Positions 339 to 15,795 of a stretch of DNA of 64,000 nucleotides are shown one piece after another. The position numbers and the translations under genes are program-made. The notes below the pieces were generated by a model. That model was not told the DNA's origin and did no database searches. It saw only the letters and a list, made by a program, of their open reading frames with translations. The DNA is taken from positions 805,182 to 869,181 of the forward strand of contig NZ_QWLV01000001.1 in assembly GCF_003515075.1 (NCBI RefSeq), given 5' to 3'. Origin of the DNA: Sphingomonas gilva. GTDB taxonomy: Bacteria; Pseudomonadota; Alphaproteobacteria; Sphingomonadales; Sphingomonadaceae. How positions within the stretch are numbered: the stretch's first letter is position 1; each line of letters opens with the position of its first letter.

Positions 339-1577
339 TCAGATCGCCTGCTCCGCGCGGAGCCGCGCGATCGCGTCCTCGCCCAGGCCGAGCATGTCGC
401 CGTAGATCGCCTGGTTGTCCGCGCCCAGCGGCGCGCCCGCGGCCGCCATCCGCGCCGGCGTCGCCGAAAAGACGATGGGAACGCCCGGGCCGAACACCTC
501 GGCGGTGCGCCCGTGAACGGGGTGCGCCAGCTCGATCACCTCGCCGCGGGCGAGCACGCGCGGATCGCGGTTGGCCTCGTCGGGCGATCGCACCGGCGCG
601 GCGGCGATGCCCTCCGCCTCCAGCCGCGCGATCACCTCTTCGCGCCCGCGCGCCCTGGTCCAGCCGCCGACGATCGCGTCGAGCTCGCGATAATGGTGGA
701 TGCGCGCGACCTGCGTCTCGAAGCGCGGATCATGCTCCAGGTCCACGCGGTCCATCGCGATCGCCAGCCGCTTGAAGTTGCGGTCGCCCGAACAGCAGAT
801 GACGACATCGCCGTCGCTCGCCGGATAGACACCGAACGGGGTCAGGCGCGGCACCGTTGCGCCGGTGCGCATCGGTATGCCGAGCTCCTCGAGCAGCTTG
901 AACGGCTCGGACGCCTGCAGCGCGCTCAGCGCGCCCAGCATCGACACGTCGATATGCTGCCCTTCGCCCGTGCGGGCATGGTGGAAGAGCGCGGAGACGA
1001 TGCCGATCACCGCGAACAACGGCGTGTTCAGATCGGCGAACGGCACGCCGATGCGGACCGGCGCATCGCCTTCGTCGCCGCTGGTCAGCATGATCCCGCT
1101 CATCGCCTGGATGATGCCGTCCATCGCCTTGCCGCCGCCGGGCGCGCCCTCCTGGCCGAACCCGCTGATCGAGCAATAGACGATGTCCTCGCGCGCGGCG
1201 CGGGCGGCGGTGTAGCCGACGCCCAGGCGCTCGGCGGTGCCGCGCGTGTAATTCTCCACCACCACGTCGAAATGGGGAACCAGGCGGGCGAAGATGCCCT
1301 TCGCCTCCGGATGCTTGAGGTTGAGCGTGATCGAACGCTTGCCGCGATGGCGGATCAGATGGCCGATCGCCACGTCGTCGTCGTGCAGGCGCTTCAGGCT
1401 GGCGCCGTCGCGGCCCAGGAAGGGGGCGTTCTCGCGCCCGTCGCCCTTGGGCTCCTCGATGCGGACGATCTGCGCGCCGAGGCCGCCCAGCAGCAAGGTG
1501 GCGAAGGGGCCGGCCAGCGCGCGCGTCAGATCGAGGATTCGGACCCCCGCCAGGGGTCCCGCCGCGCCTTCAACCAT
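339..1577 (-). CDS. Class III (CaiB/BaiF family) CoA-transferase
   Basis: 412 aa, the usual length for family III CoA-transferases such as formyl-CoA transferase, CaiB and FldA. The N-terminus GVRILDLTRALAGP and the segments RSITLNLKHP, VVENYTRGTAERLG and YCSISGFGQEG are family hallmarks. Asp182 in GVPFADLNT is the expected catalytic aspartate that carries the acyl/CoA anhydride. These enzymes move CoA between carboxylic acids without ATP. The ATG is preceded by GGAG. It is divergent from the dehydratase-like operon starting at 1713 and shares a promoter region with it, and is followed by an MFS gene. It is more distant from the other three CoA-transferases here than 4093-5283 and 25186-26376 are from each other. 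Substrate unknown. Confidence 0.93.
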   Translation of the reverse strand: MVEGAAGPLAGVRILDLTRALAGPFATLLLGGLGAQIVRIEEPKGDGRENAPFLGRDGASLKRLHDDDVAIGHLIRHRGKRSITLNLKHPEAKGIFARLVPHFDVVVENYTRGTAERLGVGYTAARAAREDIVYCSISGFGQEGAPGGGKAMDGIIQAMSGIMLTSGDEGDAPVRIGVPFADLNTPLFAVIGIVSALFHHARTGEGQHIDVSMLGALSALQASEPFKLLEELGIPMRTGATVPRLTPFGVYPASDGDVVICCSGDRNFKRLAIAMDRVDLEHDPRFETQVARIHHYRELDAIVGGWTRARGREEVIARLEAEGIAAAPVRSPDEANRDPRVLARGEVIELAHPVHGRTAEVFGPGVPIVFSATPARMAAAGAPLGADNQAIYGDMLGLGEDAIARLRAEQAI

Positions 1578-1712: not shown

Positions 1713-2819
1713 ATGGCGGAGAGCATCAACATGGCGGCGGTGGATCGCATGGCGGCGGCGCGCGCGGCGAAGGCGGCGGGGCGTGCGGTCGTCGCCGTGG
1801 TCGGTCCGGGTGTCCCGATCGAGCTGGTTCTGGCGTGCGGCGCGATGCCGGTGCGGATCGTGGCCGATGCGGGCGGCGCCACCCCGGCGGCGGACGATCT
1901 TGTCGGAACGGCCGAATCGGCCGAGATGCGCGCGCTGATCGAGCAGGCGCTGGGTGGCGGGCTCGCCTTCGCCGATCTGCTGGTGATCACGCGGCCGCAT
2001 GAATGGCTCTATTATTATCTGAAGGAGGCGGTGCGTCTGGGCGCGGAGGGGGTTCCACCGCTGCACATGCATGATCTCGTGCCCAGCGCCGAGGCGTCGC
2101 TGCGCGCCTATAACCGCCAGCGGCTCGAACGGCTGGCCGAAGCGGTCGCGCGCGCGATCGGCGTCGTGCCGACATCCGCCGCGCTTGAACGTGCGATCGC
2201 CGTCGCCAACCGGCGCAGGGCGGCGCTGCGCGATGTCCAGCGGCGGCGCGACGCCGGCTTGCTGGGCGGCGCGGATGCGGTCGCGATGATCGCCGCCAGC
2301 CACGTCCTCGGCCCGGAGACGTTTGCCGACCAGGCGGAAGCGTGGGTCGAGGGGCTTTCGCCGCCATCCGGCCCGCGCCTGCTGCTCCTCGCGAGCGACC
2401 CGGCGGAGGATGGCGCGCTTCATCGTGCGATCGAGGCGGCGGGCGTCGTCGTCGTCGCGGAAGACAGCGAATGGGGCGCGCGCGCCGCGACGCCCGATAT
2501 CGCGGCGGGAGACGATCCGCTCGATGCGCTGCTCGACGATCTCCATGCGATCGCCTGCGGCCCGGACGTCAGCCCGCGCTCGGCGCGGCTCGCCTGGGCC
2601 GAGGCGGCGATGGCGCGCGACGACATCGCCGGCGTGGTGTTCGCGGTCCCGCCCGGCGACCGCCGGTTCGGCTGGGACTATCCCGGCCTGCGCGATCGCG
2701 CCGCCGGGCTGGGATTGCCGCAGCTGCTGCTGCGCGACGATCCGCGGGCCGATCCCGCTTCGGTGACGGCGGCGGTCGCGGGATTCGTCGCGACGCTGGG
2801 GCGGGAGGCGGCGGCATGA
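1713..2819 (+). CDS. 2-hydroxyacyl-CoA dehydratase / benzoyl-CoA reductase-like subunit A (first pair)
   Basis: 368 aa from the ATG preceded by GGGAGAG; an upstream ATG at 1698 lacks a ribosome site. The layout is that of the HgdB/FldB/BcrC family: an N-terminal segment VPIELVLACGAMPVRIV (residues 34-50), a Rossmann-like half ending ADLLVITRPHEWLYYYL (87-103), and a C-terminal half GVVFAVPPGDRRFGWDYP (307-324). Canonical members bind a [4Fe-4S] cluster through three cysteines. Here the expected positions read H-E-W (96-98) and PPGD (313-316). The only cysteines are C42 and C282, neither at a ligand position as I align it. It overlaps the next gene by ATGA. Family assignment is firm; activity is open. 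Confidence 0.85.
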   Translation: MAESINMAAVDRMAAARAAKAAGRAVVAVVGPGVPIELVLACGAMPVRIVADAGGATPAADDLVGTAESAEMRALIEQALGGGLAFADLLVITRPHEWLYYYLKEAVRLGAEGVPPLHMHDLVPSAEASLRAYNRQRLERLAEAVARAIGVVPTSAALERAIAVANRRRAALRDVQRRRDAGLLGGADAVAMIAASHVLGPETFADQAEAWVEGLSPPSGPRLLLLASDPAEDGALHRAIEAAGVVVVAEDSEWGARAATPDIAAGDDPLDALLDDLHAIACGPDVSPRSARLAWAEAAMARDDIAGVVFAVPPGDRRFGWDYPGLRDRAAGLGLPQLLLRDDPRADPASVTAAVAGFVATLGREAAA

Positions 2820-4096
2820 GCGGCGAGCGCCAGCGCCCCGAGCGCGTCACCCAGCTCCAGGTCTCGCACAGCCTGCGCGCGCACCAGCGCCAATGGTATG
2901 CCGATCTCCAGGCGCGGGTCGCCGATGGCGAGCCCTATATCCTGACCAGCCCGATCGCGCCGCACGAGATCTTCGAGGCGCTCGACCTGCTCTACATCAC
3001 CGATGCCTGGTATTCGGGCCTGGTCGCCGCGCGGCGCCAGTCGGCGCATTTCTCGAACGTGATGAGCGCGCACGGCTATCATGACGGGCTCAGGCGCTAC
3101 ATGGCGCTCGGCCTGGGCGTGGTGCTCGATCCGGATCATCCCGACAAGCCCTGGGGCGGGCTGCCCAGGGCCTCCGCGGTGGTGACGACCAACGAAGGCG
3201 GTGGCGGCGCGGCCGAGCTCGCCCGGATGTGGGGCATTCCCTATCTCGGTCTCGACCAGCCCGCGATGCGGGTGATGCATCCCGAATGGTGGTCGATGCA
3301 GCGCCGCCAGTGGGAGGATTATGACGAGACCGACCGCATCGACATGATGGCCGCGCAGTTCGAAGAGGTGGTGCGCCTGGCCGAACGCGTCGCGGGACGG
3401 AAGCTCGACCGCGACCGGCTCGCCGGGATCGTCGATCGGGTGAACCGGCAGGAGGAGCATTTCGACGCGATCCGCCGGATCATCGTCGATTCGCCCAAGC
3501 TGCCCGCGCGGCTGGGCGAGGTGATGAGCCAGACGATGGGCATCCAGTGGCATCGCGGCAGCCAATGGGCGCTAGATCAGGCGGCGGCGTTCCACGCCGA
3601 GGTGAAGGCGCTGGCCGATGCGGAAGCATGGGTCTGCCCCAACGAGCGCCACCGGCTGATGTATGTCGGCGCGGGGCTGTGGCAGAAGCTCGATTTCTTC
3701 GACAGCTTCGAGGACAGCCACGGCGTCGTCTTCGTCCGCTCCAACTATCTGTCGATCGCGAGCGACGGGTATCTGCGCTACGGCGCGCGCGATCCGATCC
3801 GCGCGCTCGCCAGCCGCTACACGGTGCTCGCCAAGCAGATGTGGATTCCGCCGCTCGGCGGCGCATGGGCGGTGCACGAGGCGCGCGAGCACCGCGTGTC
3901 CGGCGCGCTCCAGCTCGATTCCAATCGCGGCATCGCCTTCATCACGCGCGCGCTGCGCGATGCGGGCGTGCCGGTGCTCGATCTGCCGGTCGATCCGGTC
4001 GATGCGCGCAGCTGGAACGACGATCGCATGCGCGCGCTCGTTGTCGATTTCATCGAGAATGCCCTCGAAAAGAACAAGGAAAAGATGGACGCATGA
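2816..4096 (+). CDS. 2-hydroxyacyl-CoA dehydratase / benzoyl-CoA reductase-like subunit B (first pair)
   Basis: 426 aa, the partner of the preceding gene, overlapping it by ATGA. Recognisable blocks are IAPHEIFEALD (residues 48-56), GYHDGLRRY (87-95), a CPNE motif with C274, an EDSHG block and SDGYLRY. The same blocks, almost equally spaced, occur in the 426-aa protein at 13862-15142, so the two are paralogous B subunits. C274 is the only cysteine in the protein, so a three-cysteine [4Fe-4S] site of the HadC/BcrB kind cannot form from this chain. The CPNE cysteine is kept in both paralogues and may have a job of its own. It overlaps the following CoA-transferase by ATGA. Confidence 0.83.
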   Translation: MSGERQRPERVTQLQVSHSLRAHQRQWYADLQARVADGEPYILTSPIAPHEIFEALDLLYITDAWYSGLVAARRQSAHFSNVMSAHGYHDGLRRYMALGLGVVLDPDHPDKPWGGLPRASAVVTTNEGGGGAAELARMWGIPYLGLDQPAMRVMHPEWWSMQRRQWEDYDETDRIDMMAAQFEEVVRLAERVAGRKLDRDRLAGIVDRVNRQEEHFDAIRRIIVDSPKLPARLGEVMSQTMGIQWHRGSQWALDQAAAFHAEVKALADAEAWVCPNERHRLMYVGAGLWQKLDFFDSFEDSHGVVFVRSNYLSIASDGYLRYGARDPIRALASRYTVLAKQMWIPPLGGAWAVHEAREHRVSGALQLDSNRGIAFITRALRDAGVPVLDLPVDPVDARSWNDDRMRALVVDFIENALEKNKEKMDA

Positions 4097-5283
4097 AGCC
4101 GCTTGAAGGGGTCCGCGTGCTTGATCTCAGCCACGCATTGTCGGGGCCGACCTGCACCAACATGCTGGCGCTGCTTGGCGCCGACGTCGTCAAGGTGGAG
4201 CGGCCGGGGGTCGGCGACGACTTCCGCCACTATACCGAACATGCCGGCATGGCCGGGATGAGCGTCCCGTTCGCGGGCGTCAACACCGGCAAGAAGTCGA
4301 TCACGCTCGATTTCAAGAAGCCGGAGGCGCGCGAGGTGATCCTGAAGCTCGCCGAACGGAGCGATCTGCTGGTGGAGAATTTCCGGCCCGGCGTCGCCAC
4401 CAAGCTGGGTCTCGATTACGATACGCTGCGTCAGGTCAACAAGGGGCTGGTCTACGCCTCGATCAGCGGCTTCGGGCAGACCGGCAAGTTCCGCGACTGG
4501 ACCGCCTATGACCATATCGTCCAGGCGATGTCCGGCATCATGTGGATGAACGGGGATCCCGACGGCGGGCCGATGAAGGTCGGCTTTCCGATCATCGACA
4601 CGTTCAGCGGCTATATGGCGGTGATCGGCCTGCTCGCCGCGCTGCACCGCCGCGACAAGACGGGCGAGGGCGATTTCGTCGACGTGGCGATGCTCGACAG
4701 CGCGTTCAGCCTGATGGGCGGCGCGATCCCGACCTACTTCTACACCGGAGAGGTGCGCGGCCGCACCGGCAATCGCGGCTATCGCCTGGTCGCGACCTCG
4801 GAGACCTATCGCACGGCGGACGGCTACATCGCGATCGGCGCCAATCACCAGCATCAGATCGAGGCGATGTGCCGGGTGCTGCACTGCGAGTCGCTGCTGC
4901 AGGACGAGCGCTTCGCCGACCACAAGTCACGGGTGAGAAACCATGAGGAGCTACGCATGGCGTTGTCGGACATCTTCCGCGAGCATAATGGCGAAGAGAT
5001 CGAACCGCGGTTGGCGGCCGCGCACGTCCCGGTCGCCTTCGTCCGCAACCTCGGCCAGGTGCTCAATCATCCGCATTTCAAGGAACGCGAGATCTTCCTC
5101 GATGCCGAGCTTCCCGGCGCGGACGATCCGCTGAAGCTGGTCGGCCCCGGCTTCCAGCTCGGCAGCGGCAGGCTGGAGGCGGGCGCCGTGCCGACGCTGG
5201 GCCAGCACACCGACGAGATACTCGCCGGGCTCGGCTATGATGCCGGCGGGATCGAGGCGCTGCGCGCCGCGGGGGCGGTCTGA
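4093..5283 (+). CDS. Class III CoA-transferase (paralogue of 25186-26376)
   Basis: 396 aa. It starts MKPLEGVRVLDLSHALSGPT and has the family blocks KSITLDFKKPEAR, LVENFRPGVATKLG, YASISGFGQTG and YDHIVQAMSG. Asp169 in FPIIDTFSG is the predicted catalytic aspartate, the same number as the catalytic Asp of oxalate formyl-CoA transferase. It is the third gene of the operon, overlapping both neighbours (ATGA upstream, TGATG downstream). In the anaerobic phenyllactate system a class III CoA-transferase (FldA) loads the hydroxy acid for the FldBC dehydratase. The position here suggests an equivalent role for the dehydratase-like pair. Close similarity to 25186-26376, including GANHQ and LVATSE blocks, points to a common acyl group. 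Confidence 0.93.
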   Translation: MKPLEGVRVLDLSHALSGPTCTNMLALLGADVVKVERPGVGDDFRHYTEHAGMAGMSVPFAGVNTGKKSITLDFKKPEAREVILKLAERSDLLVENFRPGVATKLGLDYDTLRQVNKGLVYASISGFGQTGKFRDWTAYDHIVQAMSGIMWMNGDPDGGPMKVGFPIIDTFSGYMAVIGLLAALHRRDKTGEGDFVDVAMLDSAFSLMGGAIPTYFYTGEVRGRTGNRGYRLVATSETYRTADGYIAIGANHQHQIEAMCRVLHCESLLQDERFADHKSRVRNHEELRMALSDIFREHNGEEIEPRLAAAHVPVAFVRNLGQVLNHPHFKEREIFLDAELPGADDPLKLVGPGFQLGSGRLEAGAVPTLGQHTDEILAGLGYDAGGIEALRAAGAV

Positions 5284-6116
5284 TGTTCGCCGATGGTCTG
5301 CTGGCGGGCAAACGCATCCTCATCACCGGCGGCGGCACCGGGCTTGGCGCGGCGATGGCCGAGCGCTTCGCCGGGCTGGGCGCGAGCCTCGTCCTGTGCG
5401 GCCGCCGCGAGGAGGTGCTGCGCGAGACCGGCGAGCGCATCGCCGCGGCGACGGGAGCTCGCGTCGACGCCATCCGCTGCGACATCCGCGATCCGGCCGA
5501 TGTCGACGCGCTGTTCGACGCCGCCTGGGCGGGCGGCCCGGTCGATTCGCTGGTGAACAATGCCGGGGCGATCTTCGTCGCCCGGTCAGAGCATCTGTCG
5601 CACCGCGCATTCGACGCGGTGCTCGCCACCTCGCTTCACGGCTCGATCTACTGCACGCTCGCGGCGGGCAAGCGGTGGATCGCGGCCGGCCGGCCCGGCA
5701 GCGTGCTCAGCATCCTGTCGACCGCGGCGATCACCGGGCGGGGCTTCACCGTGCCGACGGTCGTGTCGAAGACCGGCGTGCTCGCCATGACCAAGAGCCT
5801 CGCGGTGGAATGGGCGTCGAAGCGCATCCGGCTGGTCGCCATCGCGCCGGGGACCATTCCGACCGCCGGCTTCATGGCCAAGGTGGCGGCGGGCCGGGAG
5901 GGCGAGCCCGAGGCTCCGGGCGACAATACGCTGGAGCGGCCGGGGCGTCCCGACGAGCTTGCCGACCTCGCCACCTATCTGCTGTCGCCCGCCGCCGACT
6001 ATATCAACGGCGAGATGGTCGTGCTCGATGGCGGGCGGCACCTGCGCAACTCGGGCGTCGAGGATCTGCTGAAGCGAAGCGACGCCGAATGGGAGGCGCA
6101 GCGTGCCCGCCGCTGA
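5283..6116 (+). CDS. SDR of the 2,4-dienoyl-CoA reductase type
   Basis: 277 aa. The NAD(P) site ITGGGTGLG (residues 14-22) is followed by GRREE, favouring NADP(H), and NNAG is at 92-95. The active-site stretch GRGFTVPTVVSKTGV and the following KSLAVEW match the mitochondrial 2,4-dienoyl-CoA reductase pattern rather than a classical YxxxK SDR: K163 is kept, T159 is at the usual Tyr position, and YINGEMVVLDGG closes the Rossmann fold. From memory, the Tyr that DECR1 uses lies 15 residues before the Lys; that position is A148 here, so the proton donor is uncertain. A dienoyl-CoA reductase fits beside ring- or double-bond-forming dehydratase/reductase homologues. Translationally coupled to both neighbours. 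Confidence 0.8.
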   Translation: MFADGLLAGKRILITGGGTGLGAAMAERFAGLGASLVLCGRREEVLRETGERIAAATGARVDAIRCDIRDPADVDALFDAAWAGGPVDSLVNNAGAIFVARSEHLSHRAFDAVLATSLHGSIYCTLAAGKRWIAAGRPGSVLSILSTAAITGRGFTVPTVVSKTGVLAMTKSLAVEWASKRIRLVAIAPGTIPTAGFMAKVAAGREGEPEAPGDNTLERPGRPDELADLATYLLSPAADYINGEMVVLDGGRHLRNSGVEDLLKRSDAEWEAQRARR

Positions 6117-7089
6117 CGGCGCGCTCAGGATCTGCGTCTACGGCGCCGGCGCGGTCGGCGGGCATTTCGCGGTGCGGCTGGCGGCGGCGGGGCACCGGGT
6201 GTCGGTCGTCGCCCGCGGCGCGCACCTGGCCGCGATCCGCGCCGACGGCCTGACCCTGATCCGCGCCGGCGAGCGCCTGACCGCGCGCGTCGCCGCGTCG
6301 GACGATCCGGCCGATCTCGGCCCCCAGGACGTCGTGATCGTCACCCTCAAAGCACACGCCCTTCCCGAAGTCGCCCAGCGGATCGCACCGCTGCTCGGCC
6401 CGGACACCCCGGTGATCTTCGCGCAAAACGGCGTGCCCTGGTGGTATGCGAGCGGCCTGGACGTCGCGCGCCGCGCGCCGCCGGACCTGTCGCTGCTCAA
6501 CCCGGCGCTGCTCGCAGATCGCATCGGGATGGAACGCGTGATCGGCGGGGTGATCTATTCCTCCAACGATCTCGCCGCGCCCGGCGTGGTCCAGAACAAT
6601 TCGCCGCGGCGCAATCGGCTGATCATCGGGGAGATCGACGACTCCACCAGCCCGCGTATCGCGATGCTGCGCGGCATGTTGGAGGAGGCGGGCATCGAAT
6701 CGCCCGCGACCGATGACCTTCGCGCGCGGATCTGGGACAAGCTGATCGCCAATATGCGCGTGTCGCTGCTCGCCTTCCTGACCGAGCGGACCTCGCGCGA
6801 GGTCTATGACGATCCCGACCTCAGGCCGGTGATCGATCGGCTGGGCGCGGAGGCGGTGGCGATCGCGGCGGCGCATGGCGTCACCTGCGCGATCGACGAC
6901 CACGGGCCGTCGCCCGGGCACAAATCCTCGATGCTGCAGGATTACGAGCGCGGACGCGCGCAGGAGGTCGACGGGCTCGTTACCGCGCCGCAGCTCTTCG
7001 CGCGGGCGGCCGGCCTCGACACGCCGACCCTGGACACGATCGCCGGCCTGGTCCGCGCGAAGGTGGCGACCGCGCCGCGCACGGCCTAG
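6103..7089 (+). CDS. Ketopantoate reductase-like (ApbA/PanE family) oxidoreductase
   Basis: 328 aa from a GTG at 6103, chosen because GGGAGG lies 6 bp upstream; it overlaps the SDR by 14 bp. GAGAVGG (residues 14-20) is the NADP site. K83 in TLKAHAL and the C-terminal IWDKLIANM block are the expected catalytic and substrate-binding elements of the PanE fold. True PanE reduces 2-ketopantoate to pantoate. Its place at the end of an acyl-CoA operon suggests a catabolic 2-keto acid/2-hydroxy acid oxidoreductase, which would fit a pathway handling 2-hydroxy acids. That role is inference. The stop overlaps that of the convergent crotonase gene by 4 bp. Confidence 0.87.
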   Translation: MPAADGALRICVYGAGAVGGHFAVRLAAAGHRVSVVARGAHLAAIRADGLTLIRAGERLTARVAASDDPADLGPQDVVIVTLKAHALPEVAQRIAPLLGPDTPVIFAQNGVPWWYASGLDVARRAPPDLSLLNPALLADRIGMERVIGGVIYSSNDLAAPGVVQNNSPRRNRLIIGEIDDSTSPRIAMLRGMLEEAGIESPATDDLRARIWDKLIANMRVSLLAFLTERTSREVYDDPDLRPVIDRLGAEAVAIAAAHGVTCAIDDHGPSPGHKSSMLQDYERGRAQEVDGLVTAPQLFARAAGLDTPTLDTIAGLVRAKVATAPRTA

Positions 7090-7874
7090 CGCTTTCCGGC
7101 GAGAAAATCGGTCACAGACTGGCGGTGCTCGCTGCTCGCGTAGCAGATGCCCTGCGCCGCCGCGCCCGCCGAGAGCACGTCGTCGAGCGACGTTTCATGA
7201 CTATGGTTGAGGATCGACTTGGCAAGCCCCAGCGCCACCGGCGATCCGGCGCCATAGGCGGCCGCGCGCTCCACCGCAGTATCGACCAACACGTCGGGCG
7301 CGGCGATCTCGTCGGCCAGGCCGATCGCCAACGCTTCGTGCACAAGGACGGTGCGGCCGGTGAAGATCAGGTTCTTGGCCCGCGCCAGCCCGATCCTGCG
7401 GGGCAGCAGGAACATGCCGCCGCCATCGGGGATCAGGCCGCGCAGGATGTAGCTGTAGGCGAATTTGGCGCGATCCGAGGCGATCACCAGATCGCACGCG
7501 ATCGCGAGATCGGCGCCAAGGCCGGCGGCTGCCCCGTTGACCGCCGCGATCACCGGCTTCTCGATGCTCGCGAGCAGCGTCACCAGCCGGTGCGTGTTGC
7601 GACGCTGGTGCAGCCATCCCTGGGCGGCGACCGCGCCGGGATCGCGTTCCAGCCGGGCCTTCATCGCGGCGATGTCGCCGCCGGCGGAAAAGGCGGAGCC
7701 TTCCCCGGTCAGCACCAGCGCCCGCACCGTTTCGTCCGCAGCGGCGTTTTCGATCGCCGCGATCAGCGCATGCCGCAACGCCTCGTTCACGGCGTTGCGC
7801 GCATCGGGCCGGTTCATCCGCAACAGCGCCACCGTGCCGCGGCGCTCGACGATCAGAACGTCTGAATCCGCCAT
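7086..7874 (-). CDS. Enoyl-CoA hydratase/isomerase (crotonase family)
   Basis: 262 aa from the ATG at 7874, preceded by AAGGAGAG; the frame stays open further upstream without a ribosome site. The oxyanion-hole segments are FSAGGDIAAM (residues 62-71) and GAAAGLGADLA (115-123). The first catalytic Glu of true hydratases is not evident near RGLIPDGGG. Asp150 lies where PaaG-type isomerases and some other crotonases have their acidic residue, so isomerase or hydrolase activity is as likely as hydration. It is convergent with the operon ending at 7089 and divergent from the TonB receptor at 7999, with which it shares a promoter region carrying the 21-bp element. Confidence 0.9.
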   Translation of the reverse strand: MADSDVLIVERRGTVALLRMNRPDARNAVNEALRHALIAAIENAAADETVRALVLTGEGSAFSAGGDIAAMKARLERDPGAVAAQGWLHQRRNTHRLVTLLASIEKPVIAAVNGAAAGLGADLAIACDLVIASDRAKFAYSYILRGLIPDGGGMFLLPRRIGLARAKNLIFTGRTVLVHEALAIGLADEIAAPDVLVDTAVERAAAYGAGSPVALGLAKSILNHSHETSLDDVLSAGAAAQGICYASSEHRQSVTDFLAGKR

Positions 7875-7921
7875 GTGTCTCTCCTTCGCCTTCATCTGAG
7901 CAGCAAACCCTTTACATGGCA

Positions 7922-7942
7922 AACTGTTTCTAGTTATAACCA
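7922..7942. promoter_or_regulatory. Second copy of the 21-bp shared element
   Basis: It matches 1646-1666 at 18 of 21 positions and sits between the crotonase start (7874) and the TonB receptor start (7999), about 57 bp upstream of the receptor ATG. A TGGCAAAC half-site overlaps its left edge (7917-7924). It probably binds the same regulator as the copy at 1.65 kb. Confidence 0.55.
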
Positions 7943-7998
7943 ACTCGACGCTCACAAAGAGCGCTGCAGCCGCCGGTCCGGCGGGGGAGGATAGGAAG

Positions 7999-10740
7999 AT
8001 GGCTCACCGTTTCATGGTTCCGGCGTCCCTGTTGTTGGCCGGCACGTCGGCCTTCGCCCAGACCAGTCCGGCGCCGGCCGATCAGGCGGCGCCCCCCGCG
8101 ACGACGCAGCCCGCGCCGCTGACGCAGGAGGACGTCGCGCCGGAGACCACGGTCGATCCTCAGGGCGTCGAGGGCGACGCCGCTCCGCCGCAGGAGGCCG
8201 GCATCATCGTGACGGGTTCGCGCATCCGCGGCATCGCGCCTGTGGGTTCGAACGTGATCGCGGTGGGCGCCGAGCAGCTCGAGCGGCAGCCGACCGCGAC
8301 CGTGACCGACTTCCTCCGCAAGATTCCGCAGGTGCAGGGCTTCGGCGTCGACGCCTCGTCGCCCACGGTGTCCGGCCAGGGCGGCACCAACACCACTCGC
8401 GGCAGCTCGATCAACCTGCGCGGCCTGGGGCCGGGCGCGACGCTAACCCTGCTCGACGGCCAGCGCCTGCCGTCGAGCGGCGTTTCGGGCAACTACATCG
8501 ATCCCAATGCCATTCCGGCGATCGCGATCGAACGCGTCGAGGTGGTGGCGGACGGGGCGTCGGCGATCTACGGATCGGATGCTGTCGCCGGCGTGGTGAA
8601 TTTCATCACGCGCCGTGATTATGACGGCGTCATGGTCCGCGCCCGCGGCGGTCTTGCAGAAGATTATTGGCTTGCCCAGGCCGGCGCAGTTGTCGGCAAG
8701 CGGTGGGGCACGGGCGGCTTCGCCCTCTCCTACGAGCATACCGAGACCGATAATCTCAACGGCGGCGAGCGCAGCTACATCCGTTCGGACCTGACCGGGC
8801 TCGGCGGTAACGACTATCGCAACAGCCAGTGCAACCCGGGCAATATCGTCACGGGTGGCAGGTCCTACGCGATCCCGGTTGGCGGTGTGACGCCGGAGAC
8901 TGCGGCCTTGCTGATACCCGGAACGCGCAACTATTGCGAAAATCTGCGCTTCGGCGACATTCTGCCCTCCGAGACGCGCGACAGTTTCGTGTTCAACGCG
9001 CACCAGGAGATCGCCGAAGGGCTGACGCTCAACGCGCAGGTGCTGTTCAGCAACCGCAGCTACGAAGCCAAGGCGCTGCAGCAGGGATCGACATCCAATC
9101 TGGTCAACCTCAGCGTACCAAGTCGCAATCCCTATTTCGTCGCGCCGCCGGGAACCAATCCCGCGAGCGTGACGGTCGAATATGATTTCACACGCGAGCT
9201 CGGCCTCATCAACCAGACCGGCTATACGCGCGACAGGCGCTTCAGCGGCGGGCTGGAGTGGGAGATTTCCCAGGACTGGGAGTTCAACATCTCCGGCTTC
9301 TACGGCGTCGACGACAGCGCGCAGGTGACGCGGCGGATTGATTCAGGCGCGCTGAACGCGGCGCTCGGCAGCACCGATCCGGCGGCGGCGTTCAATCCCT
9401 TTGGCGGCGGCAACAGCCAGGCGGTGCTCGATTCGATCTTCGTCGGCATCTTCAATCCCTATGCGATCAACCGCACGCGCGGCGGCCAGGTGAATCTGAG
9501 CGGCTCGCTGCTCAGCCTGCCCGGCGGCGACGTGCGACTGGCGGTGGGGGCCGAGTTCATTCGCTATACGATCGACGGCGGGTCGGCGATGGGCAGGATC
9601 GACAGCCCGAACCTGCTCTATCAGAAGCAGGAGCGTAACCAGAAGTCCGCCTATGGCGAGCTTTTCATCCCCATTTTCGGCTCAGGCAACGCGGTTCCGG
9701 GGTTCGAGCGGCTCGACCTGTCGATCGCCGGGCGCATCGACGATTATAGCGATGTCGGTTCGACCACCAATCCCAAGTTCGGCGTCAACTGGTCTCCGGT
9801 GGACGGGCTGGTGCTGAAGGGCAGCTACGGCCAGTCGTTCCGCGCGCCCAACCTGCAGGACCTGCCGCTGTTGCGGACGGGCGCGGGTCTCGCGGTCGTC
9901 ACCTGGCTCGATCCCGAATCGCCGACCGGCAGCAGCGTGGGCCTGTCGCTCAACGCGGGCAATCCGGATCTCACGCCGGAAAAGGCGACGACATGGTCGG
10001 GCACCGTTGAGTTCAGCCCGCGCAGCACGCCCGGGCTGCTTCTCTCGGCGACCTATTTCAACATCGATTACAGCGACGTAATCGGTTTCCCGCCGCGCAC
10101 CGCGAACAGCCTGCTCGATCCGAACTACAGCTTCGTCGTGACGCGCAACCCGAGCGACGAGCTCATCCAGTCCTATCTTGATCAGGGCTTCACCATCGCG
10201 GGCATCCGTCCGCCGGTGGTCGGATTCTTCTATAACGGCCAGGCGCGGAATCTGGGGTCGATCCAGACCGACGGCGTCGACTTCAACCTGCTCTACGACA
10301 TCGACACCGATGTCGGCGAGTTCGGCCTGGGCCTCAACGGCACCTATCTGTTCAACTACAAGGTGGCGATCAGCCCCGACGCGCCGCTCGAGCAGCAGAA
10401 ATCGAACATCAACTTCCCGGTCGACTTCCGCGCGCGCGGATCGGTGGGCTGGTCCAACGCCGGCGCTTCGGTCGAGGTCACGGTCAACTATCTCAACGGC
10501 TACAACAATGTTCTGGTGAGCCCGGTCCAGCGGGTCGAATCGCTGACCACGGTCGATTTCCACCTGGGGTACGAATTCCAGCAGGACAGCGGCCTGCTGG
10601 AAGGGCTGGAGATCAGCCTGGACGGCACCAACTTCTTCAACGAACGCGCGCCGTTCGTGAACATCCAGAACGGCTTCGATCCGGGGCAGGCGAGCGCGCT
10701 CGGCCGCTTCGTCAATCTGACCGTCACGAAGAAGTTCTGA
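7999..10740 (+). CDS. TonB-dependent outer-membrane receptor
   Basis: 913 aa. A signal peptide ending AFAQ (about residue 21) is followed by a long Pro/Ala-rich stretch, the TonB box-like IIVTGSRI, the plug domain with INLRGLG and DGASAIYGSDAVAGVVNFI, and a 22-strand barrel region ending in Phe (LTVTKKF). It is paralogous to 26414-29134; shared blocks include CNPGN, NPYFVAPPGT and FNPFGGGNSQAV. Such receptors import substrates too large or too dilute for porins. The operon behind it suggests an aromatic or acyl compound. It is the first gene of the hydrolase/oxidoreductase/dehydratase/MarR operon, and the next gene follows within 10 bp. Confidence 0.95.
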   Translation: MAHRFMVPASLLLAGTSAFAQTSPAPADQAAPPATTQPAPLTQEDVAPETTVDPQGVEGDAAPPQEAGIIVTGSRIRGIAPVGSNVIAVGAEQLERQPTATVTDFLRKIPQVQGFGVDASSPTVSGQGGTNTTRGSSINLRGLGPGATLTLLDGQRLPSSGVSGNYIDPNAIPAIAIERVEVVADGASAIYGSDAVAGVVNFITRRDYDGVMVRARGGLAEDYWLAQAGAVVGKRWGTGGFALSYEHTETDNLNGGERSYIRSDLTGLGGNDYRNSQCNPGNIVTGGRSYAIPVGGVTPETAALLIPGTRNYCENLRFGDILPSETRDSFVFNAHQEIAEGLTLNAQVLFSNRSYEAKALQQGSTSNLVNLSVPSRNPYFVAPPGTNPASVTVEYDFTRELGLINQTGYTRDRRFSGGLEWEISQDWEFNISGFYGVDDSAQVTRRIDSGALNAALGSTDPAAAFNPFGGGNSQAVLDSIFVGIFNPYAINRTRGGQVNLSGSLLSLPGGDVRLAVGAEFIRYTIDGGSAMGRIDSPNLLYQKQERNQKSAYGELFIPIFGSGNAVPGFERLDLSIAGRIDDYSDVGSTTNPKFGVNWSPVDGLVLKGSYGQSFRAPNLQDLPLLRTGAGLAVVTWLDPESPTGSSVGLSLNAGNPDLTPEKATTWSGTVEFSPRSTPGLLLSATYFNIDYSDVIGFPPRTANSLLDPNYSFVVTRNPSDELIQSYLDQGFTIAGIRPPVVGFFYNGQARNLGSIQTDGVDFNLLYDIDTDVGEFGLGLNGTYLFNYKVAISPDAPLEQQKSNINFPVDFRARGSVGWSNAGASVEVTVNYLNGYNNVLVSPVQRVESLTTVDFHLGYEFQQDSGLLEGLEISLDGTNFFNERAPFVNIQNGFDPGQASALGRFVNLTVTKKF

Positions 10741-10747
10741 GTTGAGG

Positions 10748-11731
10748 ATGGCGACCGCAACCGACGACAAGGAAGCCGACCCGACGACGGATGCGGATGA
10801 CGGATCGCTTCTCGGCCGCTTCCGAGGGGAGCGGCCGGAGGCGTCCGCCTGGTTCGCCGAAGCGATAGCGGTAGAGCCCAGCCGATCGACATTCGCATCG
10901 GGCGGGGTCGACATCGAACTGTTGACCTGGGGCGAGATCGGCAAGCCCGGCCTGTTGTTCCTGCACGGCAACGGCGCGCACGCGGACTGGTGGAGCTTCA
11001 TCGCCCCCTATTTCGCGCGGGACTATCGCTGCGCCGCAATCAGCTGGTCTGGCATGGGCGGGTCCGGCTGGCGCGAGGCGTACGACCTTCCGACGTTCGG
11101 AGCGGAGGCGTGCGACGCGATCGCCGCCGCCGGGCTCGATCGCGCTTCGGTCAAGCCGGTGGCGATCGCGCATTCGTTCGGCGGCATGCCGCTGATGCAG
11201 GTCGGCGCCCATCATGCCGACCGCATAGCCGGCGGAATCATGGTCGACAGCTTCGTGCCGCCGCCCGACCGCAAGCCGCGCTGGACGACGCGCGGCGCGC
11301 CGACGCGGCGCTATCCGCAATTGGCCGACGCGCTGGCGCGCTATCGCTTCGCCCCCGAACAGGACAGCCAATGGCCGGAAGTGGTCGACCATCTCGCGCG
11401 CACGTCGCTGCGCTGGATGGAAGCCGACGCCCATGGCGAGGCGGGATGGACCTGGAAGTTCGATCCGACGCTGTGGGCGACGATGGACCGGACCGGGGCA
11501 GACGCGCTGCTGGAGCGCGTCGATGTGCCGGTCGCCTTGATCTTCGGCGAGGAATCGCTGCTGGTCCGCGCGGAAGCCGCGCAGGCGATGCAGGCGCGGC
11601 TGCGCAACTGTCCGATCGCGATCGCGATCCCGCACGCGCGCCATCACATCATGGTCGATCAACCGATCGCGCTCGTCGCGGCGCTGCGCGTGGCGGTTCA
11701 GGCGATCGCGGCAGTTGGAGACAGGAAATGA
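10748..11731 (+). CDS. Alpha/beta-hydrolase fold protein
   Basis: 327 aa if it starts at the ATG at 10748; a TTG at 10742 is the alternative, since GAGG directly abuts the ATG. The HGNGAHADWW segment (residues 73-82) supplies the oxyanion loop, S143 in AHSFGG is the nucleophile, and the C-terminal ARHHIMVDQP carries the catalytic His. There is no signal peptide, so it is cytoplasmic. Candidates are a carboxylester, lactone or C-C (beta-ketolase-type) hydrolase; nothing in the sequence decides. It lies 7 bp after the TonB receptor and overlaps the oxidoreductase by ATGA. Confidence 0.88.
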   Translation: MATATDDKEADPTTDADDGSLLGRFRGERPEASAWFAEAIAVEPSRSTFASGGVDIELLTWGEIGKPGLLFLHGNGAHADWWSFIAPYFARDYRCAAISWSGMGGSGWREAYDLPTFGAEACDAIAAAGLDRASVKPVAIAHSFGGMPLMQVGAHHADRIAGGIMVDSFVPPPDRKPRWTTRGAPTRRYPQLADALARYRFAPEQDSQWPEVVDHLARTSLRWMEADAHGEAGWTWKFDPTLWATMDRTGADALLERVDVPVALIFGEESLLVRAEAAQAMQARLRNCPIAIAIPHARHHIMVDQPIALVAALRVAVQAIAAVGDRK

Positions 11732-12726
11732 GGATCTGGCACAGCACCGAAGTCGGCGGGTCCGACGCCCTCGCCATCGCGCAGGTCGATCCGCCCCTTC
11801 CCGGGCCGGGCGAACTGCTGGTCGATGTCCGCGCGTGCGGCATCAATTTCCCCGACAGCCTCATCATTCGCGATCTCTATCAGTTCAAGCCGCAGCGTCC
11901 CTTCGCGCCCGGTGGCGAGGTGGCCGGAGTGGTCAGCGCCGTGGGCGATGGCGTCAACGGCTTCGCTGCCGGCGACCGCGTCATCGCGCGGACCGGCTGG
12001 GGCGGCCTTGCCGAGCAGGTCGTGGTGGCGGCGGACAAATGCATCACGATGCCCGGCGCCATGCCGTTCGACGAAGGCGCGGCGTTCCTGTTCACCTACG
12101 GCACCTCCTATCACGCGCTCAGGCAACGCGCCCGGCTCGCGGCGGGTGAGACCGTGCTCGTCCTCGGCGCAGCGGGCGGCACCGGGGTCGCCGCGATTGA
12201 GATCGCCAAGGCGTCCGGCGCGCGCGTCGTCGCGGCGGCGTCGAGCGAGGAGAAGGTGGCGTTCGCGCGAGAATGCGGCGCGGACGACGGCATCGTCTAT
12301 CCCTCGGGACCGCTGGACAAGAGCGCCTCGCGCGCTTTGGGCGAGGCGTTCAAGGCGGCCGCGCCCAAGGGATTCGACGTGGTCTATGATCCTGTCGGCG
12401 GCGACTATGCCGAGCCGGCGCTGCGCGCGATGGGATGGCGCGGGCGTTATCTGGTGGTCGGCTTCACCGCCGGGATACCCGCGCTTCCGTTCAATCTGCC
12501 GTTGCTCAAAGGGTGCGAGATCGTCGGCGTGTTCAATGGCGGTTTCCAGGCGAACGAACCCGAAGTGGCCGCCGCCAACACCCGCAAACTGATTGCGCTC
12601 TACGGAGAAGGCAAGCTTCACCCCCGCATCACGCGCCGCTTCGCTTTCGAGGACGCGCCCGAGGCGATCGACGCCATCGCCACGCGCGGCGCGCTGGGCA
12701 AGCTCGTCGTCATGGTGTCGGCATGA
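11728..12726 (+). CDS. NADPH:quinone oxidoreductase-like MDR protein
   Basis: 332 aa, zinc-free medium-chain dehydrogenase/reductase of the quinone oxidoreductase/enoyl reductase group. The N-terminal GroES-like part contains ACGINFPDSLIIRDLYQ and PGGEVAGVVSAVG; the NADPH site is GAAGGTGVAAIE. The structural-zinc cysteine cluster of alcohol dehydrogenases is absent. Close relatives include acrylyl-CoA-type and enoyl-CoA reductases as well as quinone reductases, so double-bond reduction of a CoA ester is possible here. The ATG has GGAGACAGGA upstream and overlaps the hydrolase stop by ATGA. The stop overlaps the next dehydratase-like gene the same way. Confidence 0.88.
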   Translation: MRIWHSTEVGGSDALAIAQVDPPLPGPGELLVDVRACGINFPDSLIIRDLYQFKPQRPFAPGGEVAGVVSAVGDGVNGFAAGDRVIARTGWGGLAEQVVVAADKCITMPGAMPFDEGAAFLFTYGTSYHALRQRARLAAGETVLVLGAAGGTGVAAIEIAKASGARVVAAASSEEKVAFARECGADDGIVYPSGPLDKSASRALGEAFKAAAPKGFDVVYDPVGGDYAEPALRAMGWRGRYLVVGFTAGIPALPFNLPLLKGCEIVGVFNGGFQANEPEVAAANTRKLIALYGEGKLHPRITRRFAFEDAPEAIDAIATRGALGKLVVMVSA

Positions 12727-13865
12727 CCGGCGCCGAAGCGCTGGCGCGGTTGACCGCGGCCTATGACGATCGTCTGGGCGAGGCGCGTCGGCGCAAGGCG
12801 GCGGGCGCGACGATCGTCGGCTATTTCCTCAATTCCGTGCCTGTCGAACTGATCGTCGCCGTCGGTCTCGATCCTGTCCGTCTGGTCGGCGATCCGGGAC
12901 GCCGCGCATCCATCGCCGATCGCTACATGGAAGAATATATGGACGGCGAGGTGCGCTCGATCTTCGGATCGATGCTCACCGGCGATTTCGATTTCGCCGA
13001 CCTGGTGGTGATCCCGCGCACGTCCGAAGTCTATCTGCAGCTCTATTACTTCCTGCGCGAGATGCCGCGCTGGGAACCGGATGCGCCGGTTCCCGAAACC
13101 TATCTGTTCGACCTGCTCCAATCGCCGCACTGGCTGACCGCGCGCTGGGACGAATCGCGCATGCGGTCGTTCGCGAAGCGGCTGGAGACGCTCGGCGGCC
13201 GGCCGGTCGACGACGGTGCGCTCGCCGAGGCGATAAGACTGTGCAACCGGCTGCGGTCGGCGCTCCAGGCGGCGAGCAGTTTGTGGCGCGGCGAGACCCG
13301 GCTCGACGGAATCGATGCGCTCAAGGTGATCGGCGCCGCGTCCGTGCTCGCGCCCGAGGACGCGATCGCCGCGCTCGACGCGTTGGCTGCCGATCCCCCG
13401 GAACCGCTGCCATCGGCCCCACGCCTGCTCCTTAAGGGCAGTCCGCAGAGCGACCCGCACGTCACCGCGCTGATCGAGGCGGCGGGCGGCCGCGTCGTCG
13501 CGCACGATCATGTCGCCGGCGACCCGACCTTCCGCGCGCTGGTCGCGGAGAACGACGCGCCCTGGGAGGCGCTCGCCGGTCACTATCAACGACATATTCT
13601 GGGTCCCCGCGTGCATCCGCAGGCCGATCAGGACGCGCATTTCATCGCACTGGCGCAAGAGGCGGCCATCGATGGCGTGATCTTCTTCCACGATGAATGG
13701 GACGACACGCTGGGCTGGGAATATCCCGACCAGCGCCAGTTGCTCGAGGCGCGAGGCATCCCGTCGCTGTTCCTGAAACGCCAACCCTATTTCGATCCGC
13801 CGGCCGAGGACCAGCGCGCCGCGATCTCCGATTTCCTCAGCCAGATCGCGAAGGTGCCGGCATGA
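12723..13865 (+). CDS. 2-hydroxyacyl-CoA dehydratase / benzoyl-CoA reductase-like subunit A (second pair)
   Basis: 380 aa. The signature LNSVPVELIVAVGLDPVRLVG (residues 36-56) is the family N-terminal block; DFADLVVIPRTSEVYLQLYYFL and GVIFFHDEWDDTLGWEYP follow at the positions of the second and third cluster-binding cysteines. Those positions hold T-S-E (100-102) and H-D-E-W instead of Cys, and the position of the first ligand (YMDGEVRSIF, about residues 72-81) has no Cys either. The sole cysteine is C174, in a helix (RLCNRL). It is paralogous to the A subunit at 1713-2819, with the same substituted sites. Overlaps by ATGA on both sides indicate tight stoichiometric coupling to its B partner. 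Confidence 0.85.
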   Translation: MTGAEALARLTAAYDDRLGEARRRKAAGATIVGYFLNSVPVELIVAVGLDPVRLVGDPGRRASIADRYMEEYMDGEVRSIFGSMLTGDFDFADLVVIPRTSEVYLQLYYFLREMPRWEPDAPVPETYLFDLLQSPHWLTARWDESRMRSFAKRLETLGGRPVDDGALAEAIRLCNRLRSALQAASSLWRGETRLDGIDALKVIGAASVLAPEDAIAALDALAADPPEPLPSAPRLLLKGSPQSDPHVTALIEAAGGRVVAHDHVAGDPTFRALVAENDAPWEALAGHYQRHILGPRVHPQADQDAHFIALAQEAAIDGVIFFHDEWDDTLGWEYPDQRQLLEARGIPSLFLKRQPYFDPPAEDQRAAISDFLSQIAKVPA

Positions 13866-15142
13866 CCGAAGACACACGGATGGCCGCGACCCATGCCGCC
13901 AATGCCTATCAGAAGGCCGGGCAGGCGCGCTTCCGCGAAGAGGTGATCGCCGGCGGCGCGCCCTATGTGATCGCCGAGGCGGTGACTCCGCATGAGATCT
14001 TCCACGCGCTCGACATTCCGGTGATCTCGCTGCCTTGGTATTCGGCGATCATCTCCGCCAAGCAGCTCTCGCCCTATTATTTCGGGCTGATGGACAAGCT
14101 CGGCTATCATGACGGCCTGCCGCGTTACGGATCGCTGCCGTTCATGACGACGCTGGACGGGGACCGCGACCGCGCACCCTATGGCGGCCTGCCGAAGCCG
14201 CTGATGATCCTCGAACGGCTGCGCGGCGATTTCGGACAGAAGATCGGCGAGCAATGGGCGCGCGCCTTCGGCGGGGACGTGCCGCTGGTTTCGCTCGACA
14301 GCTCGTCGCTCGCCGATCTCGGCAGCCCGTGGTTCGACCGCAACCAGCACGGCTGGGAGGAACTCTACGGCTCCGACCGGCTGGATTTCCAGGTCGAGCA
14401 GTTGAAGGGCGTGATCGCGCTCACCGAGGCGCTGACGCATCGCGCGCTCGATCCCGAGGAGCTGCGCAAGGTGATGCATCTGGTCAACCAGGCCGGTGAG
14501 CAGGTCGATCGCGCCAAGCGGCTGATCGGCGGGACCAAGCCGGTGCCGGTGTCGCTGCCCGAGCAGCTGACCAACATCATGGCCGCGACATGGAATCGCG
14601 GCGGGCAGTGGGCGGTCGATCATCTGACCGCCTATTGCGACGAGATCGAGGAGCGGATCGATAAAGGCTATGCGATCTGCCCGAACGAGAAGGTCCGCCT
14701 GCTGTGGGTCAACAACGGCCTGTGGTTCAACACCGGCTTCTACCGCGCCTTCGAGGAGAGCCACGGCGCGACCTTTGTGTGGTCGATGTATTCGAACTTC
14801 CTGTCGGACGGGTATCGCAAATATTTCGACGACGGGGTCGATCCGCTCCGCGCGCTGGCGGCGCGGCACATCAGCATGAACGAGCAGCTTCATCTGCCCG
14901 GCTGGATGGCCGAATGGATCGTCCAGCAGGCGAAGGACTATCAGTGCGACGGCGCAGTGGTCCTGGTGCCGATCGGCGACCGGATGAGCTCGTTCGGCAC
15001 CAAGATCTGCCAGCTCGCGCTGGAACAGGCGGGCATCCCGACGCTGGAGCTGACCGCCAGCATGGTCGATTCTCGCCTGTGGGACAATGACGCGATGATC
15101 GCTAAGGTCGGTCGTTTCATCGAGGAGCGAATCGCGGCGTGA
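13862..15142 (+). CDS. 2-hydroxyacyl-CoA dehydratase / benzoyl-CoA reductase-like subunit B (second pair)
   Basis: 426 aa, the same length as its paralogue at 2816-4096. Shared blocks are TPHEIFHALD (residues 42-51), GYHDGLPRY (81-89), CPNE with C273, EESHG and SDGYRKY. It has four cysteines (in AYCDE, CPNE, YQCDG and TKICQ), but none in GYHDGLPRYGSLPF or in the VPIGDRMSSFG segment where canonical members keep cluster ligands. The C-terminal QAGIPTLELTASMVD is the usual family ending. Together with 12723-13865 it should form a heterodimer or heterotetramer in the cytoplasm. The stop overlaps the MarR start as GTGA. Confidence 0.83.
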   Translation: MTEDTRMAATHAANAYQKAGQARFREEVIAGGAPYVIAEAVTPHEIFHALDIPVISLPWYSAIISAKQLSPYYFGLMDKLGYHDGLPRYGSLPFMTTLDGDRDRAPYGGLPKPLMILERLRGDFGQKIGEQWARAFGGDVPLVSLDSSSLADLGSPWFDRNQHGWEELYGSDRLDFQVEQLKGVIALTEALTHRALDPEELRKVMHLVNQAGEQVDRAKRLIGGTKPVPVSLPEQLTNIMAATWNRGGQWAVDHLTAYCDEIEERIDKGYAICPNEKVRLLWVNNGLWFNTGFYRAFEESHGATFVWSMYSNFLSDGYRKYFDDGVDPLRALAARHISMNEQLHLPGWMAEWIVQQAKDYQCDGAVVLVPIGDRMSSFGTKICQLALEQAGIPTLELTASMVDSRLWDNDAMIAKVGRFIEERIAA

Positions 15143-15633
15143 CCACCGGGCTCAACGATCTCGTGCCGAGCCACGCGTCACGGGGGCAGGGCGAATACGA
15201 CATCGGCGTGCTGCGGGACGTGATCGTCTTCCGGCTGCGGCGTATTCGCAACCATATGACCGAGTCGTTCCGCGCGGGCGGCTGGCGCGACGGACTGAAG
15301 CCCGGCGAGTTCACCACGCTTGCGTTGATCGTCGCCAATCCCGGCATCTCGCAGATCGATCTCGCGCGCGTCGGGGGATTCGACCAGACCTCGCTGGTGG
15401 GGATCATGGACGATCTCGAACGGCGCGGCTGGGCGGGACGGGCCAAGGACCCCGACGATCGCCGCCGCCATCGCATCGTCGCCACCGCCGCCGGCCGCGA
15501 AGCGCTCGACGGGCTGATGGCGCGGGCGCAGGAGAACGAGCGGCCCGCGCGCGAGGCGCTGACGCCCGCCGAGCTCGACGCGTTCATGAACGCGCTCGAC
15601 AAGATCTACCACCGGCTGCTCGACCCCGAATAG
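15139..15633 (+). CDS. ferC: MarR-family regulator, FerC-like
   Basis: 164 aa from a GTG overlapping the previous stop (GTGA), with GAGGAG 11 bp upstream. The winged helix-turn-helix spans GISQIDLARVGGFDQTSLVGIMDDLERRGW, followed by the wing DPDDRRRHRIVAT. In Sphingobium SYK-6 the ferulate operon ferBA is repressed by the MarR-type protein FerC, which hydroxycinnamoyl-CoA thioesters release. This gene lies 162 bp upstream of an aldehyde dehydrogenase-ferB-ferA operon, so the same role is likely. Unusually, it is translationally coupled to the end of the dehydratase-like operon, so its own level would follow that operon. The symbol is assigned by context. Confidence 0.75.
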   Translation: MTTGLNDLVPSHASRGQGEYDIGVLRDVIVFRLRRIRNHMTESFRAGGWRDGLKPGEFTTLALIVANPGISQIDLARVGGFDQTSLVGIMDDLERRGWAGRAKDPDDRRRHRIVATAAGREALDGLMARAQENERPAREALTPAELDAFMNALDKIYHRLLDPE

Positions 15634-15768: not shown

Positions 15769-15795
15769 ACATAACAATCAGCGATGGAGAGGATT

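Follow-up and report, generated by a model that had tools for sequence, protein, structure and literature searches.

Paired 2-hydroxyacyl-CoA dehydratase-like proteins without cluster-binding cysteines in Sphingomonas gilva and other Alphaproteobacteria

The HGD-D family, to which the 2-hydroxyacyl-CoA dehydratases belong, is marked by low-potential radical chemistry that requires clusters and ATP-driven electron injection. A stretch of 64,000 nt from the Sphingomonas gilva genome (the window, meaning the whole stretch analysed) contains two gene pairs, A1-B1 and A2-B2, which had been predicted from the sequence to belong to this family while lacking the cluster-binding cysteines, and this raises the question of whether they are genuine members, and what such proteins may do without the machinery on which the family depends. 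Judged from their sequences, the pairs are real and conserved, not canonical, and should not be called 2-hydroxyacyl-CoA dehydratases, since they lack the cluster ligands and the catalytic glutamate and no activase was found.

Both pairs are located on the forward strand, with A1 at 1713..2819, B1 at 2816..4096, A2 at 12723..13865 and B2 at 13862..15142; the four open reading frames (ORFs) are intact, and A and B overlap by 4 bases in each pair. The HGD-D model PF06050 matched A1 with 108.8, B1 with 82.5, A2 with 144.3 and B2 with 127.3 bits (Pfam cut-off 28.4). In profile searches, with profiles that contain canonical rows as well, A matched 3o3m_B, 8s02_B and 9g87_B (E 6e-67 to 1e-49) and B matched 9g87_A, 3o3m_A and 8s02_A (E 3e-66 to 3e-46), and homology to the solved HadBC, BzdNO and MbdON proteins spans nearly the full length of both subunits. 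The structure comparison suggested with the original prediction was run on models of A2 and B2, with pair 1 assessed by sequence. The AlphaFold model of A2 (mean pLDDT 86.0) was closest to 8s02_B (BzdN; Z 38.8, 22% identity) and 3o3m_D (HadC; Z 38.7, 20% identity, rmsd 2.7 with 367 aligned), and that of B2 (mean pLDDT 71.6) to 3o3m_A (HadB; Z 30.7, rmsd 2.9 with 362 aligned), with the first chains from outside the family at Z 8.1 and Z 5.8, respectively. The subunits of both window pairs cover the HGD-D fold in full, A being of the HadC/BzdN type and B of the HadB/BzdO type, and reading frames, HGD-D scores, profile matches and model folds agree on the HadBC/BcrBC-like nature originally claimed for both subunits. 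The two paralogous pairs are thus both real, but they are not alone: the genome of the window (G000, 99.98% complete) contains six HGD-D genes, arranged as three pairs inside 18.5 kb, with the third pair (A3-B3, L007 11792-14121 on contig C9, minus strand) directly upstream of window position 1.

For BzdO, a published account (PMC11971306) describes a [4Fe-4S]-OH2 cluster held by Cys95, Cys128 and Cys380, with acid/base roles for Glu65 and His131 and the thioester oxygen bound by Tyr97, Tyr298 and Gln274; in BzdN, six cysteines serve the double-cubane [8Fe-9S] cluster. Profile alignment placed the three BzdO ligands at residues 87, 122 and 373 of B2, Glu65 at 58, Tyr97 at 89 and Tyr298 at 310, while the ligand columns of A2 are residues 74, 101 and 327. 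Cysteine occupies all three ligand columns in 16/16 canonical B and 16/16 canonical A rows. The same columns read P87/G122/D373 in B2, R/gap/gap in B1, D74/S101/D327 in A2 and S/H/D in A1, and all six cluster-ligand cysteines are missing from each window pair; pair 3 also lacks cysteine at these columns in the alignment. In total, A1 contains two cysteines, B1 one (426 residues), A2 one (380 residues) and B2 four, which bears out both the missing cluster cysteines and the single cysteine of the first B subunit as they had been noticed from the sequence.

The window pairs are part of a wider clade. A midpoint-rooted maximum likelihood tree of 47 B proteins split 31 clade rows from 16 canonical rows with 100/100 support, with long branches for B3 (2.36 changes per column) and B1 (1.57). 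One further clade row, L091 (G325), is absent from the tree and from the 31-row sets used for diagnostic columns, the Cys4 check and topology tests, and is included in all counts over 32 rows. At the ligand columns, 17 of the 32 clade B rows have no cysteine (the three of G000, L008-L014, six A-B fusions and L093), 14 read C,C,N and one (G014) reads C,C,C. Fourteen of the 15 cysteine-bearing rows were inspected further, and 14/14 add cysteines at positions 90 and 124, found in 0/16 canonical B rows; this Cys4 kind, of which L091 is also a member, has by alignment a remodelled CxxC + CxC set in its B subunit and no ligands in A. Among the 19 clade A rows of more than 250 residues, which represent 17 genes (A2 is present twice as L001 and L002 and A3 twice as L005 and L097), the sole ligand-column cysteine is at column 101 of L094, and Asp at column 327 and Trp at 332 are each present in 18/19. 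That count leaves out the short Cys4-kind A proteins, four of which (L070, L075, L077 and L085) have no cysteine at the ligand columns in a separate alignment. The Cys4 kind would be in line with an intermediate stage, the electron-relay cluster having been lost first. Neither monophyly of the ligand-free kind (p-AU 0.59) nor of the Cys4 kind (p-AU 0.52) was rejected, and these data allow more than one branching order inside the clade, and a single as well as a repeated loss of the cysteines.

The A-B fusions are single ORFs of 716-799 codons (L072 9756-12122, L079 8086-10398, L080 8428-10827, L081 8725-11097, L082 9893-12043 and L100 9290-11677), which have between one and four class III CoA transferase domains next to them, in L072 four in a row. 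Plasmids carry A proteins of the Cys4 kind (L087 10991-11869, L088 10970-11854 and L089 11000-11887) that score 233-265 bits with the A profile, and the Pfam HGD-D model matches the Cys4-kind A proteins of the family-survey genomes weakly or not at all.

Glutamate at the catalytic column (Glu65 in BzdO; in HadB we take Glu55, beside the cluster, to be the catalytic residue) is present in 0/32 clade B rows versus 16/16 canonical rows. The tyrosines of the thioester site are retained, with Tyr89 in 31/32 and Tyr310 in 32/32 rows by column identity, including B1 and B2; B3 carries Asn at the Tyr89 position. Asp123, which adjoins the second ligand position, is found in 30/32 clade rows versus 0/16 canonical rows, and 46 diagnostic B columns, ten of them Trp, are conserved in ≥87% of the 31 clade rows and ≤15% of the canonical rows. 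The B-subunit motifs proposed earlier as marks of a distinct active site held in part: Glu45, Tyr310 and Tyr318 are present in 32/32, Glu298 in 31/32 and Gly302 in 30/32 rows, but His44 (PHEIF, 25/32), His83 (GYHDGL, 11/32), Cys273 (CPNE, 12/32) and the SDGY residues Asp316 (16/32) and Gly317 (17/32) are not general. A metal site formed by PHEIF and GYH was considered and then given up, since neither His44 nor His83 is kept across the clade, and the suggestion of a different metal found no backing, as the A and B alignments showed no set of metal ligands kept throughout the ligand-free members.

Between B2 and its relative in L011, dN was 0.091 and dS 0.66 (dN/dS ~0.14), and for the same pair of genomes dN/dS was 0.14 for the aldehyde dehydrogenase and 0.08 for the hydroxycinnamoyl-CoA hydratase/lyase, which by these ratios places B2 under purifying selection much like the neighbouring metabolic genes. 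The A subunit evolves faster, with a higher dN/dS than B in all four ortholog pairs compared, and with a mean identity among L008-L014 (21 comparisons) of 42.4% for A and 68.5% for B; the corresponding means for canonical BcrCB-type pairs (55 comparisons) are 70.5% and 75.6%.

The genome search for an ASKHA activase, likewise suggested at the outset, gave neither a PF01869 nor a TIGR00241 match in G000. Over the 38 genomes with HGD-D genes, the activase model TIGR00241 was matched in 15/15 genomes with canonical pairs (14 above cut-off, one a fragment at a contig end) versus 0/23 with clade pairs only, without exception, these genomes being related and hence not 38 independent trials. In the class survey, 17/337 alphaproteobacterial genomes had an HGD-D match (12 canonical, 4 clade and 1 unclassified weak match), with the G013 match (21.2 bits, below cut-off) being excluded from all counts. 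The survey of the window's family found HGD-D in 21/298 genomes, 19 with clade and 2 with canonical pairs, and a scan with the clade profile, confined to one phylum (E ≤ 1e-20), found 5/398 genomes, four clade and one canonical (G797), all Alphaproteobacteria. Relatives at seven loci in named genomes come from Sphingomonas, Novosphingobium, a Rhodobacteraceae metagenome-assembled genome (MAG), Nitratireductor, Aquamicrobium and Chelativorans. Twelve plasmid records were also matched, seven of them with at least 80% query cover, from Rhizobium, Novosphingobium and Croceicoccus; the other five, below 80% cover (23.8-26.2% identity), were not counted as relatives. As seen in these surveys, the clade is alphaproteobacterial. 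Separately, locus L083 (G422) in the window's family carries two canonical cluster-binding pairs and an activase match in the same 20 kb, and offers a natural contrast to the window.

The most constant companion of the pairs is a class III CoA transferase, found at 27/28 clade loci (L014 lacks one, with none within 10 kb) versus 0/3 canonical loci, and at 24/28 clade loci located ≤1.2 kb from B on the same strand. The window contains four, at 339..1577 (minus strand, divergent from pair 1), 4093..5283 (plus strand, overlapping the end of B1), 22446..23645 and 25186..26376 (both minus strand), with PF02515 scores of 294-402 bits (cut-off 23.3), and 6/9 class III CoA transferases of G000 cluster around the pairs at 789-831.5 kb of contig 9. 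Pair 2 is more than 7 kb from its nearest same-strand CoA transferase, in G000 and L011 alike. The Asp of the GxPxxD motif, presumably catalytic, is invariant in 24/24 aligned transferases (371-429 residues). One class III CoA transferase match in this genome (G000:C9:247285-248301) has one in-frame TGA and is possibly a broken gene, and in the Cys4 kind two-domain tandem class III CoA transferases are located between A and B (L070 6628-8877, L087 11866-13953 and relatives; first domain 64-82 bits).

Downstream of pair 1, all on the plus strand, are a short-chain dehydrogenase (5283..6116, relative in L011), an ApbA/PanE-like dehydrogenase (6103..7089, relatives in L008, L011 and L014) and a TonB-dependent receptor (7999..10740). 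An alpha/beta hydrolase (10748..11731, plus strand, relatives in L008, L011 and L014) is followed by a medium-chain, quinone-oxidoreductase-like reductase (11728..12726, plus strand) immediately 5′ of A2; such a reductase adjoins the pair-2 kind in seven relatives as well as in the window, and nears the PIG3 quinone-reductase group, with 204 bits in the window (below the cut-off of 297) and 459 bits in L012 (above it). A MarR-type regulator (15139..15633, plus strand) overlaps the end of B2 and has homologues 3′ of B in L011 and L014. It is followed on the same strand by an aldehyde dehydrogenase (15784..17220), a p-hydroxycinnamoyl-CoA hydratase/lyase (17236..18072; NCBIfam equivalog, 447.1 bits, cut-off 276) and, by its domain make-up, an NDP-forming acyl-CoA ligase (18079..20199). 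The contig also carries, some 25-28 kb ahead of window position 1 (L098), the alpha and beta subunits of protocatechuate 4,5-dioxygenase and a 4-hydroxybenzoate 3-monooxygenase, which are oxygen-dependent enzymes. Pair 2 sits in a hydroxycinnamate/protocatechuate gene island, and the hydroxycinnamoyl-CoA lyase, CoA ligase and protocatechuate/4-hydroxybenzoate genes nearby suggest that its substrate is to be sought among the plant phenylpropanoid acids; a steroid or bile-acid substrate was considered and dropped, as no support for it was found. Neighbours of the other clade kinds include TRAP transporters, CapA and CocE genes and tandem CoA transferases. The CapA (PGA_cap) protein (L070 3047-4159 and relatives), a frequent neighbour of fused and Cys4-kind pairs, reaches 87 bits (cut-off 700) with the model of the lasso-peptide Trp epimerase MslH, and on this score could be a metal-dependent epimerase acting in the same pathway. 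The cysteine-free branch in an aerobic host that was first proposed is upheld as a clade that lacks the cluster cysteines and a recognisable activase, has conserved residues not shared with canonical members and occurs in a genome that breaks down aromatic compounds with oxygen-dependent enzymes; neither ligand cysteines after all nor a cognate activase, either of which would have overturned the proposal, turned up. The branch is wider, as it takes in the Cys4 kind and A-B fusions too.

The window pairs resemble HadBC and FldBC, with HadA and FldA, in fold, paired subunits and CoA-ester tyrosines, and in having a CoA transferase next door, since a class III CoA transferase adjoins the dehydratase genes in Had and Fld loci; the pair-2 kind also has the adjoining reductase. 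They differ in lacking cluster ligands in either subunit and the catalytic glutamate, in having no HadI/FldI-kind activase that we could find, and in being seen here only in Alphaproteobacteria. Among the class I benzoyl-CoA reductases (BcrBC, BzdNO and MbdON), the A2 model ties BzdN with HadC and the B profile matched MbdO best, but the pairs lack the [4Fe-4S]-OH2 ligands and the Glu65 equivalent, no BcrA/D-type activase was found, and the NCBIfam equivalogs of these reductases gave at best 76.9 bits for A2 (BzdN, cut-off 453.8) and 61.5 bits for B2 (BzdO, cut-off 448.6). The two cysteines of A1 and the one of A2 are too few for a double cubane as in BzdN. The double-cubane cluster protein DCCP (6eno and 7yyl) has the same fold (Z 37.1 and 36.8 with the A2 model), but here there are two distinct subunits, with too few cysteines for an [8Fe-9S] cluster and no activase-type partner found, and the DCCP model gave at best 86.0 bits, below its cut-off of 350.

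In summary, by sequence the pairs no longer have the ligands of either cluster or the catalytic glutamate, no activase turned up, and the fold, gene pairing, thioester tyrosines and CoA-transferase partner have been kept. Because the CoA-ester site and CoA supply remain while clusters, glutamate and electron supply are gone, we consider it somewhat probable that the pairs have abandoned radical chemistry and form a redox-neutral enzyme which receives its acyl-CoA from CoA transferases and works by acid-base catalysis on the polarised thioester. A class III CoA transferase would activate a plant-derived acid, probably an aryl-propanoid, to its acyl-CoA, which B would hold in the former CoA channel with the thioester oxygen at Tyr89 and Tyr310. 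Acid-base residues by the emptied cluster cavity, with Asp123 and Glu45 of B as candidates, would then catalyse a redox-neutral step on the acyl chain, for example an isomerisation, an elimination/hydration or a C-C/C-O lysis, with A as the faster-evolving partner whose former cluster site now bears Asp and Trp (D327 and W332). In the pair-2 kind the product may pass to the adjoining medium-chain reductase, and in G000 it would then feed into the route through hydroxycinnamoyl-CoA, vanillate and protocatechuate. Several observations weigh against this proposal. The B2 model has pLDDT <50 over most of residues 58-108, the would-be active site, and because of this weakness it is the alignment that places Asp123, Glu45 and the tyrosines close together. 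Both reaction and substrate are what we infer from sequence and gene context, and the three pairs need not share one reaction, because Tyr89 is Asn in B3 and both B1 and B3 are on long branches. The hydroxycinnamoyl-CoA lyase is near the pair at 4/27 other clade loci (L011, L071, L077 and L088) and missing from the other 23/27 within the stretch read, so the aryl-propanoid link is only local. Finally, PF01869 was matched above cut-off in two clade genomes (115.3 bits in G014 and 101.4 bits in G175), neither of which has a TIGR00241 match; PF01869 is a broad model, matched in 104/337 genomes at E ≤ 0.001, many of them without HGD-D.

The strongest rival, which we regard as unlikely, is that the pair is non-catalytic and serves the class III CoA transferase as a scaffold or as a carrier of acyl-CoA, with catalysis left to the transferase itself. 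This would suit the disappearance of the groups known to be catalytic in the dehydratase and the near-constant, closely placed transferases with their invariant aspartate, and there is precedent in FldABC, where the phenyllactate dehydratase subunits form one complex with their own CoA transferase; however, the conservation of B, with its 46 diagnostic columns and strict thioester tyrosines, goes beyond the needs of a scaffold, and both the distance between pair 2 and its nearest same-strand transferase and the absence of one near L014 are hard to fit. More doubtful is a one-electron dehydration of 2-hydroxyacyl-CoA without ATP activation using another cofactor (a mononuclear metal, a flavin, or a cluster on other residues), for which the Had/Fld-like order of CoA transferase, A, B and medium-chain reductase and the possible metal site persisting in the Cys4-kind B would speak, while the lack of a conserved metal-ligand set in the ligand-free members, the missing glutamate beside the cluster water in all 32 rows and the absence of TIGR00241 from all 23 clade genomes argue against it. 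That the pairs are decaying, functionless duplicates of a formerly canonical pair might explain the long branches of B3 and B1 and the faster evolution of A, but is very improbable given the intact frames, the low dN/dS of B2 and the gene pairing conserved across Sphingomonadaceae, Phyllobacteriaceae and a Paracoccaceae MAG. Least credible of all is that these are canonical, oxygen-sensitive radical enzymes with overlooked or misaligned cysteines and an activase elsewhere; family membership is clear by profile and fold, but a single cysteine each in B1 and A2, ligand columns free of cysteine and no match to either activase model in a 99.98% complete genome leave next to no room for it.

The boldest reading, a speculation that we consider improbable, is that the clade represents a cofactor-free, oxygen-tolerant class, grown from a radical Fe-S family, which in the aerobic degradation of plant phenylpropanoid conjugates uses acid-base chemistry at the CoA ester to achieve what in anaerobes requires a ketyl radical, for example removal of the hydroxyl from aryl-lactyl-CoA or a related 2-hydroxyacyl-CoA, aided by a para-hydroxyaryl group; the Cys4 kind would then be a relative keeping a metal in just one subunit. 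According to a review (PMC11574389), the beta-proton of a 2-hydroxyacyl-CoA is not removable by protein bases, and the known enzymes use a radical for this reason.

Among the matches listed in the open-licence PMC literature, which does not cover subscription papers, we came across no earlier description of these operons, nor of family members that lack the cluster cysteines. A clade that is under selection and stripped of the radical machinery, but keeps the CoA-ester residues, suggests that this fold is open to other chemistry, and since both Cys4 and ligand-free kinds exist, the route of cluster loss can be tested. Three annotated plasmid records name the Cys4-kind B a '2-hydroxyacyl-CoA dehydratase family protein' and its A a 'hypothetical protein', and because of such labels annotation by family name may lead readers to credit aerobic genomes with an anaerobic reaction that is probably beyond them. 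The proteins of this clade probably act otherwise on CoA-activated acids, perhaps in the breakdown of plant compounds, and their operons point to a CoA-dependent catabolic route that recurs in sphingomonads (19/298 genomes of the family).

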